Assembly: GCF_009905725.1 (NCBI RefSeq)
Contig: NZ_JAAAKV010000004.1
Span: 372,001 to 436,000 of the forward strand
DNA length: 64,000 nt
Direction: 5' to 3'
Source: Emticicia sp. CRIBPO
GTDB lineage: Bacteria; Bacteroidota; Bacteroidia; Cytophagales; Spirosomataceae
Every line of letters begins with the position of its first letter. The stretch's first letter is position 1. The notes under the pieces were generated by a model that made no database searches, was not told where the DNA came from, and saw only the letters and a list, made by a program, of their open reading frames with translations. Positions 21,465 to 57,182 of this stretch are shown piece by piece. Position numbers and translations under genes: made by a program.

Positions 21465-22622
21465 ATGGAAAAATTCGTAGTTTCTGCACGAAAATACAGA
21501 CCCGTCACATTTGATTCTGTGGTTGGACAATCACACATTACCACCACCCTTAAGAACGCAATCAAGACCAATCACCTGGCTCAGGCTTTCCTTTTCACAG
21601 GACCCAGAGGAGTAGGTAAAACAACCTGTGCGAGGATTCTCGCCAAGACGATCAACTGTCTCAACGTCAACGAAGAAACGGAGCCTTGCAACGAATGTAC
21701 TTCCTGTAAGAATTTTGACCAGAACGCCTCTTTTAACATACATGAGCTGGATGCTGCTTCCAACAACTCGGTGGAAGACATCCGTAACCTGATTGACCAG
21801 GTGAGGTTTCCGCCTCAGGATGGTAAATACAAGGTTTATATCATAGATGAGGTTCACATGCTCTCTCAGGCGGCCTTCAATGCTTTTTTGAAGACCCTCG
21901 AAGAACCGCCTTCCTATGCCATTTTTATCCTGGCTACGACCGAAAAACATAAGATATTACCCACGATCCTGAGTCGTTGCCAGATTTTTGACTTCAACAG
22001 GATTCAGATCAGAGATATGGCCGACCATCTCTCCAATATTGCCAATAAAGAAGGTATTGGTTTTGAATATGAAGCCCTGGAGCTGATTGCCCAGAAAGCA
22101 GATGGCGGACTTCGCGATGCTTTGTCGATGTTTGACCTGAATGTGACTTTTTCGGCTGACAGGCACCTGGCGTTCAAACAGGTACTGGACAACCTTCACG
22201 TGCTGGATTATGATTATTATTTCAGGATAGTTGATGCCATCAATGAGTCTGATTTGTCTTCTACCTTGCTGATATTCAATGAGATTCTGACCAAAGGTTT
22301 TGACGGACACCAGTTTGTGGTGGGTCTTAACGAGCACATCCGTAACCTGCTGGTTTGCAAAGACCCGCAGACCGTAAGCCTTATGGAAGTGTCTGAATCT
22401 ACCAGACAAAAATACCTGAATCAGTCGGCCAAATCTTCTATGGGCTTCCTGATGTCTGCTTTGAGTGTTGGATCACAGCTGGATCTTAATTTTAAAGCAT
22501 CCAAAAATCAGCGTTTGCATGTAGAGATCGGCCTGATGAAATTGTCGCAGATCAACGCCGTATTGAACCTTGCGAACCTGCCTGGCGGCGACGCTGAAAA
22601 AAAAAAGCTGATGCTCCAGTAA
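21465..22622 (+). CDS. dnaX: DNA polymerase III subunit gamma (zero-frame dnaX product)
   Basis: 385 aa clamp-loader ATPase. Walker A is GPRGVGKTT from residue 46. The zinc module is CLNVNEETEPCNECTSC, Walker B is VYIIDEVHML, sensor 1 is LATTEKHK and the SRC motif is ILSRCQIF. This frame ends at 22622 just after ten consecutive A. The tau C-terminal part continues in the -1 frame to 23200. The product would therefore be a gamma-like short form holding the ATPase and oligomerisation domains. With recoding or transcript slippage a tau of about 578 aa would be made. An assembly error in the A tract is the alternative. Confidence 0.93.
   Translation: MEKFVVSARKYRPVTFDSVVGQSHITTTLKNAIKTNHLAQAFLFTGPRGVGKTTCARILAKTINCLNVNEETEPCNECTSCKNFDQNASFNIHELDAASNNSVEDIRNLIDQVRFPPQDGKYKVYIIDEVHMLSQAAFNAFLKTLEEPPSYAIFILATTEKHKILPTILSRCQIFDFNRIQIRDMADHLSNIANKEGIGFEYEALELIAQKADGGLRDALSMFDLNVTFSADRHLAFKQVLDNLHVLDYDYYFRIVDAINESDLSSTLLIFNEILTKGFDGHQFVVGLNEHIRNLLVCKDPQTVSLMEVSESTRQKYLNQSAKSSMGFLMSALSVGSQLDLNFKASKNQRLHVEIGLMKLSQINAVLNLANLPGGDAEKKKLMLQ
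22597..22607 (+). promoter_or_regulatory. Slippery site in dnaX (A10-G) for -1 frameshift or transcriptional slippage
   Basis: Ten A (22597-22606) then G. In the dnaX frame the end reads A AAA AAG, the same heptamer in the same phase used for programmed -1 frameshifting in E. coli dnaX. Long A runs in Thermus dnaX instead cause RNA polymerase slippage. A GC-rich GGCGG lies about 13 bases upstream, but I see no clear stimulatory hairpin just downstream. Confidence 0.6.
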
Positions 22623-23200
22623 ACACCGCTCCGCCTGTCAATAGCCAGGCTCAGAATCCTGCTCCGACCCCGGCTGCTTCAACGGCTTCGGCGGCTCCTG
22701 TCAGTTCATCCGATAATTCGCCTCGAAAGCCTATGGCATTTAAATCGTCCCGGTTTAAGTCTGTGGTGGCTATGGAAGAGTCTGTTGTCCAGGATGTTCA
22801 GAAGCAGGAAGGCCATCAACCTTCTTCAGACCAGTTCGGAAACAGGTCATTTACAAAAGAAGAAGCCTCCGATGCCCTCAGGGCTTTTGCAGATCAGCGT
22901 GATTCGACGACCGAAAAGATGATTTTCCAAAGTGATTTTGAGCTGAGAGACCAGTTTACCATTCATTTCAAGCTTTTGAATAAACTTAAAGAGGATGTTC
23001 TAAATGAGCTGAAACAGGAAATGCTGGATTTTGTCAGGAAAAGGCTGCAGAATTCATCGATCCAGGTAAGCTCCGAAGTGACTGCTGAAGAAACAAAAGC
23101 CAAACCAAGAACCGAGCAGGAAAAATTTGAAGCCATGGCCAAAAAGAACCCCGCCCTTAAGGATCTGAAGGAAAGACTGGGATTGGATTTGGTGTATTGA
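22607..23200 (+). CDS. dnaX: Tau-specific C-terminal part of dnaX (-1 frame)
   Basis: Reading on in the -1 frame after the A tract gives an open frame of 197 codons. It starts with a Pro/Ala/Ser/Thr-rich linker (ADAPVNTAPPVNSQAQ...), as between gamma and tau domains, and goes on to a helical C-terminal region (about 22860-23170, with SDFELRDQFTIHFKLLNKLKED and ending NPALKDLKERLGLDLVY). No ribosome start is needed, although an internal ATG exists at 22733. The conserved-looking protein downstream of the zero-frame stop argues that tau is made, so the gene is not simply broken. Confidence 0.8.
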   Translation, partial: ADAPVNTAPPVNSQAQNPAPTPAASTASAAPVSSSDNSPRKPMAFKSSRFKSVVAMEESVVQDVQKQEGHQPSSDQFGNRSFTKEEASDALRAFADQRDSTTEKMIFQSDFELRDQFTIHFKLLNKLKEDVLNELKQEMLDFVRKRLQNSSIQVSSEVTAEETKAKPRTEQEKFEAMAKKNPALKDLKERLGLDLVY

Positions 23201-57046: not shown

Positions 57047-57182
57047 ATGTAGCCCGAAAAAATCTCCTTTCTCTTTCTCCCTTTTTCCCTCCTCCTTTGT
57101 CCAGCCATTCCCTTTTCCTTTGTCCAGCCTCCTTTTTCCATTTATTATTACTACTTTTAAAAAAAAATATTCAACCAAATCA

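Follow-up and report, generated by a model that had tools for sequence, protein, structure and literature searches.

A run of ten adenines at the gamma/tau border of dnaX very probably lets the gene make a short and a long replication protein

In the 64-kb stretch of DNA analyzed here, called the window throughout, dnaX breaks off shortly after a run of ten adenines, and the sequence expected to encode the rest of the tau protein continues in another reading frame. Does this gene make two products, as dnaX does in E. coli and Thermus, and by what route is the frame changed? The original prediction named two routes, programmed -1 frameshifting by the ribosome and slippage of RNA polymerase on the A run, together with the alternative that an A had been undercalled in the assembly. 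We examined the gene itself, its relatives in the genus and family, and a survey of dnaX loci from the phylum.

Two reading frames of dnaX meet at the A run

The relevant features, in window coordinates, are these:

21465..22622, + strand: dnaX zero frame, gamma-like product of 385 aa, AAA+ clamp loader domains I-III (ORF, Pfam, NCBIfam)
22597..22606, + strand: A10 slippery run at the gamma/tau border (sequence; A≥9 kept in 180/225 phylum dnaX loci)
22601..22607, + strand: A_AAA_AAG heptamer, in phase, at the end of the run (sequence)
22609..22611, + strand: TGA, early stop of the third (+1) frame, after one codon (sequence)
22620..22622, + strand: TAA, zero-frame stop and end of the gamma-like product (sequence, ORF)
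22607..23200, + strand: tau tail in the -1 frame, 197 codons plus TGA (23198-23200), a Pro/Ala-rich linker followed by a conserved C-terminal part (PRK14971 match, tail homology, substitutions)

The zero frame begins with ATG at 21465 and has 385 codons. Across the border it reads GAA AAA AAA AAG CTG ATG CTC CAG TAA, with G at 22607 following the run, and the -1 frame opens at GCT (22607). The layout originally described, with a stop 16 bases after A10-G, an in-phase A_AAA_AAG at the end of the run and a tau tail of 197 codons in the -1 frame, thus stands in all three parts. Insertion of one nucleotide, or a -1 shift, gives a product of 381 + 197 = 578 aa, in which DAEKKK is followed by ADAPV at the border.

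Both frames match the same protein model, NCBIfam PRK14971 (DnaX gamma/tau, 614 positions): the zero-frame part covers positions 1-364 (E 2.4e-216) and the -1 tail positions 421-613 (E 1e-22). The curated score of this model, 685, applies to the whole protein; the N-terminal part alone scores 720 and passes, and the tail alone scores 81, below it. The zero-frame part also matches dnaX_nterm and, in Pfam, DNA_pol3_delta2, DNAX_ATPase_lid and DNA_pol3_gamma3; a Pfam search of the tau tail found no family. The genome to which the window belongs (G000, 6.06 Mb in 39 contigs) has one dnaX, all remaining matches being weak (E 1e-11 or worse). The closest named dnaX among the best 80 of 594 matches is from Dyadobacter, at 75% identity, and on this basis the window was assigned to Cytophagales, Bacteroidota. 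Apart from the A10 of dnaX, no homopolymer in the window reaches ten bases; the only other A or T run of at least nine is one of nine A at 57159-57167.

The run is conserved in most sampled loci of the phylum

We surveyed 225 dnaX loci of the phylum, drawn from three sources (56 + 80 + 89). The first gave 56 loci (L006-L035 and L116-L141) from 59 genomes; G019, G022 and G023 had no clear dnaX match and were left out. The second consisted of 80 named contigs, the best 80 of 594 matches, and is biased to near relatives. The third gave 89 loci (L142-L230) from a 148-genome draw of the phylum, with G077 (no clear match) and G152 (cut gene) left out: 34 from order- or class-mates new to the set and 55 from other classes, the latter representing 55 of 111 genomes at one per genus, or two for g81 and g86. 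Duplicates were sought only as identical 240-nt stretches, and none was found. Loci that end before the tail does include L075, L091, L092 and L099. In each locus we scored whichever A run was longest between -90 and +330 nt of the conserved part, which places a few of them (L057, L139) far inside the tail.

At least nine consecutive adenines were found at the gamma/tau border in 180 of the 225 loci. Ten was by far the most frequent length (127 loci), followed by nine (39), eleven (11), twelve (2) and thirteen (1). Outside the 420-nt border window, 974,911 bases of the same loci hold 21 such runs, or 0.009 per window, which puts the chance expectation at about 2 for 225 border windows versus the 180 observed. 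The gamma coding part has one such run (224,550 bases), and the sequence further down has four (103,263 bases). Within the gamma part, 33% of lysines are encoded by AAG, which means that an uninterrupted A run does not simply reflect codon preference; the GC content of A10 loci reaches 0.63. Beyond the survey, 23 of 27 further loci of the class carry A≥9; these are 30 loci minus three repeats of survey genomes (L278, L282, L297; 26/30 with the repeats), and none was added to the survey counts.

The run is absent from the other 45 survey loci. It is present in 15 of 27 named Bacteroidales (12 without) and in 35 of 55 other-class loci (20 without). Homologues with no A run and a single frame had been proposed as the finding that would weaken the case for recoding. 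The survey points mostly the opposite way, with the run kept in 180 loci, 118 of which have a single frame, and missing from the 45.

Frames, phases and stops vary around a constant run

Of the 180 run-bearing loci, 118 encode tau in the zero frame, 60 in the -1 frame and two (L098 and L169) in the +1 frame, the rare direction. The run stands in all three codon phases (88/68/24), the base after it is G in 79 loci, C in 67 and T in 34, and 29 different peptides are encoded over it. Such variation in phase, next base and peptide indicates that conservation acts on the nucleotide run itself and not on a peptide or any single heptamer. A following G is found in 41 of the 60 two-ORF genes with tau in -1.

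Stops close to the run are over-represented in the frames that do not lead to tau. Where tau is in frame 0, the -1 frame is stopped within eight codons in 98% of loci and the +1 frame in 83%, versus 46% and 43% for sites chosen elsewhere in these tails. Where tau is in -1, the third frame is stopped within eight codons in 87%, versus 50% at other sites of the same tails. That both non-tau frames mostly end soon is what one would expect of a run from which all three frames are reached, the situation that passages of PMC1088944 describe for Thermus.

The arrangement appears to have changed often. A FastTree tree of the N-terminal part requires at least 30 switches between one-ORF and two-ORF layouts among run-bearing loci. 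It also requires 31 changes of run phase, 55 changes in which base comes next, and 23 gains or losses of the run.

The two-frame layout is kept within the genus

Counting the window, eight of ten genomes of the genus have A10, tau in -1 and a zero-frame stop within five codons. The A10 two-frame layout is thus seen in seven of the nine other genomes, and in the remaining two the run is A9 and the zero frame encodes tau. The position of the zero-frame stop varies among these genomes, and the stop may be TAA, TGA or TAG. In the eight two-ORF tails, differences summed over the 28 pairs fall 1721/1459/2952 on the first, second and third codon positions of the -1 frame, and in the closest pair 5/6/21. 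The excess at third positions indicates that the tail evolves as coding sequence, as would be expected if the -1 frame is translated.

These results bear on two explanations in which the gene is not recoded. A runs are error-prone, and tau sits in the zero frame in most run-bearing relatives (118/180), which would suit an assembly or base-calling error, the true run being 11 A and the gene an ordinary one for a 578-aa tau. Yet seven of the nine other genomes, the related sequences in which the original prediction had advised counting the A's, share the A10 two-frame layout, their zero-frame stops differing in position, tau lies in -1 at 60 run-bearing loci across the phylum, and the -1 tail changes as coding sequence does. 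Because the layout is kept at the genus level, we set this explanation aside; on these comparisons, an undercalled A is very unlikely. The other explanation, a broken or split gene whose tail is translated by re-initiation (e.g. from ATG 22733) or a phase-variable switch, can draw on an ATG-started ORF of 155 aa within the tail, but it too appears highly improbable: the frame runs through into the tail in the 118 run-bearing relatives, the tail of the window resembles those of one-ORF relatives, and the run length is 10 in eight of the ten genus genomes.

Stimulatory elements and tRNA supply

Programmed frameshifting in E. coli dnaX involves an upstream Shine-Dalgarno-like stimulator and a downstream hairpin, according to passages of PMC3711429; neither was found in the window. 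No stable hairpin or pseudoknot is predicted 3' of the run (z -0.41), and the 22 nt before the last seven A contain no Shine-Dalgarno-like 5-mer. Nor was downstream structure detected over 178 loci, whose mean of -7.55 kcal/mol compares with a control of -7.24 kcal/mol (p = 0.56). Across all run-bearing loci, Shine-Dalgarno-like words are in excess just upstream of the run, with 5-mers in 20 of 180 loci (control mean 7.8, range 1-15) and 4-mers in 69 of 180 (control mean 37.8, range 28-55). Most of these words are separated from the run by 0-7 nt, a shorter spacing than in E. coli. At E. coli-like spacing their numbers, 21/118 (control 2-21) and 6/60 (control 1-6), reach the top of the control range.

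Of the 36 tRNA genes found in the window's genome, which is rated 97.8% complete, two are for lysine, and both are tRNA-Lys(UUU). As a discriminator between the mechanisms, tRNA supply is not decisive. A further tRNA-Lys pattern match (L231) was rejected, as ARAGORN finds no tRNA there.

Ribosomal-type sites seem to take the place of the run within the family

The family of the window is represented by 34 loci of the first source plus Dyadobacter L036, an assumed member. Twenty-nine of these have the run and six do not. Five of the six (L025, L026, L032, L118 and L119) carry an in-phase A_AAA_AAG or G_GGA_AAG at dnaX codon 380, and the -1 frame is stopped after one codon in four of them and after three codons in one. 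All five have GGAGG exactly 10 nt before the heptamer, and such a Shine-Dalgarno word at 8-11 nt occurs in just one of the 29 run-bearing family loci (L021). Of the five, L118 alone has a strong hairpin predicted downstream (-22 kcal/mol over 60 nt); the other four give -6.0 to -15.4. The sixth run-less member, L031, has neither the run nor such a site. The poly-A run and the ribosomal site appear to substitute for one another at a single position in the family, and the window belongs to the run type.

Slippage of RNA polymerase as the probable main route

We conclude that the A10 very probably lets dnaX make both a short and a long replication protein. Slippage in transcription is, with a probability of about 0.7, the main route to the two DnaX forms, and a mixture with ribosomal slippage is possible. 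RNA polymerase would slip on the ten adenines and yield mRNAs with differing numbers of A. An unslipped mRNA, with 10 A, would be translated up to TAA into the 385-aa gamma form. An mRNA with one additional A would place the tau tail in frame and give the 578-aa tau form, and one lacking an A would lead to TGA at 22609 and again to a gamma-like end. By its conserved length of about ten A, the run would determine how much of each form is made. In the E. coli reporters with magnesium chelatase cassettes described in passages of PMC3711429, runs of 11, 9 and 7 A gave 63%, 40% and 10% shifting; passages of PMC5009743 give a gamma:tau ratio of 1:1 in both E. coli and Thermus. If the reporter figures carry over, we infer that ten A would cause about half of the messages to be shifted, near 1:1.

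Ribosomal slippage needs only a seven-base heptamer. We favor the polymerase because the run is longer than the ribosome needs, neither the next base nor the phase is fixed, both non-tau frames have stops, and the window shows no stimulators. The competing explanation is programmed -1 frameshifting by the ribosome, either at A_AAA_AAG or through movement along the entire A run; tau would then come from the shift. The in-phase heptamer and the finding of tRNA-Lys(UUU) alone mean that the ribosome could slip here as in E. coli. Tau lies in -1 in 60 of the 62 two-ORF run-bearing genes and in +1 in two, a one-sidedness that counts against polymerase slippage, although slippage biased toward insertion would give the same. 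The frequent G in the tau-in--1 genes (41/60), the over-representation of Shine-Dalgarno-like words close to the run when all loci are counted, and the five run-less family members with a heptamer and GGAGG 10 nt upstream point in the same direction. The 45 of 225 loci that do without the run also count against slippage. But the upstream word is missing from the window and stands at 8-11 nt in only 1/29 run-bearing family loci, no downstream structure appears in the window or the 178 loci, ten A are kept where seven suffice, only 79 of 180 runs have G as the next base, and the third frame, too, is closed by near stops. On balance, ribosomal frameshifting as the main route appears rather unlikely. 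Thus the original proposal that one of these two routes makes gamma and tau gains support, and the evidence leans to RNA polymerase slippage. The emphasis it placed on the E. coli heptamer is borne out as to phase and has become less telling, since fewer than half of the run-bearing relatives have the G.

Elsewhere in the window's genome, two of 16 A10 sites lie in the middle of a long frame, an observation that we counted against the slippage reading. They are in L309 and L310, near position 1502 (G000:C36:91224-91235 and G000:C37:177100-177111), where frames of 369 + 377 and 275 + 500 codons surround the runs, and they are possible further slippage sites.

Relation to known dnaX systems

A two-ORF dnaX with a poly-A run has been known since 2013, and the gene in the window adds one more case. 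In the type described by Antonov et al. (passages of PMC3711429), the zero frame encodes gamma and ends just after the poly-A, so that a -1 shift is needed for tau. The window has this arrangement, its gamma ORF ending after the poly-A with tau in -1, and so do eight of the ten genus genomes. Ten adenines occur in nine of the 17 two-ORF dnaX genes of that study, for which transcriptional realignment was proposed; it also took one-directional shifts as a sign of ribosomal frameshifting. Passages of its main text do not cover phylum-wide conservation, switching between one and two ORFs, or exchange with ribosomal sites at the family level. Likewise, conservation of the run across a phylum is not stated in the titles and abstract openings of the open-licence papers listed for dnaX slippage or frameshifting.

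The dnaX of Thermus thermophilus, in passages of PMC1088944, resembles that of the window in having an A run at the gamma/tau border and near stops in the other frames. At least nine A stand at the border in the window as well, and TGA 22609 and TAA 22620 close the non-tau frames. In Thermus, however, tau is the zero-frame product, slippage gives gamma and the run has 9 A; the window has the reverse layout and 10 A. Passages of PMC5009743 report that Thermus mRNAs carry extra bases, and treat the reversed dnaX layout as ribosomal frameshifting. With E. coli dnaX the window shares the in-phase A_AAA_AAG and the same two products, but the shift makes gamma in E. coli, whereas in the window it would make tau.

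The run in 180 of 225 loci, together with the closure of both non-tau frames, suggests that selection for the two products extends well outside E. coli and Thermus. We would give even odds to a wider reading for the Bacteroidota. Under it, the gamma/tau ratio in most lineages would be set by polymerase slippage tuned by a length of about ten A, with free switching between layouts in which gamma or tau is the standard product. Lineages that lose the run may substitute Shine-Dalgarno-driven ribosomal frameshifting, as in the window's family, or possibly TAG readthrough, as in some Bacteroidales, selection acting for two products rather than for one mechanism. The A9, A10 and A11 genes, the one- and two-ORF layouts, and the run or ribosomal site within one family form a natural series in which substitution between polymerase and ribosome slippage can be tested. 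We expect that annotation is likely to split such genes into a truncated dnaX and a hypothetical protein; according to passages of PMC3711429, none of its 17 genes was annotated as recoded in RefSeq.

Genes with an in-frame TAG and other unusual loci

Three loci from Bacteroidales/Bacteroidetes metagenome-assembled genomes have no A run and carry an in-frame TAG at the gamma/tau border (locus coordinates):

L077:2788-2790, TAG codon
L094:4099-4101, TAG codon
L100:4102-4104, TAG codon

In each, ATTGC(A/T)AGG follows the TAG, the tau frame runs on without a shift for 189-254 codons, and the tail matches PRK14971. The neighboring genes (antiporter, dapF and folC, assigned by eye) have frames that are open under the standard code. 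Over the 36 nt from TAG on, L077 and L094 are identical at 31 positions, versus 44/60 before and 19/60 after this stretch, and L100 agrees with the other two at only 20/36 and 21/36. Judged from sequence, the TAG may be a candidate site of stop-codon readthrough and hence a further route to gamma and tau. The pattern was seen in none of 395 genomes of the class, a set that does not include L094's own lineage (top identity 66% among the matches listed), and in 0/64, 0/8 and 0/16 genomes from the orders of three arbitrarily chosen centres. Readthrough of this kind in dnaX is not described in the titles and abstract openings of the papers listed for dnaX and stop-codon readthrough (10 of 18).

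One further locus, L108, also has no A run at dnaX codons 365-384. Its zero frame ends at TAA, and a +1 frame of 260 codons has a tau-like end, as judged by eye. In this single metagenome-assembled genome, the layout could be an error or a +1 shift.
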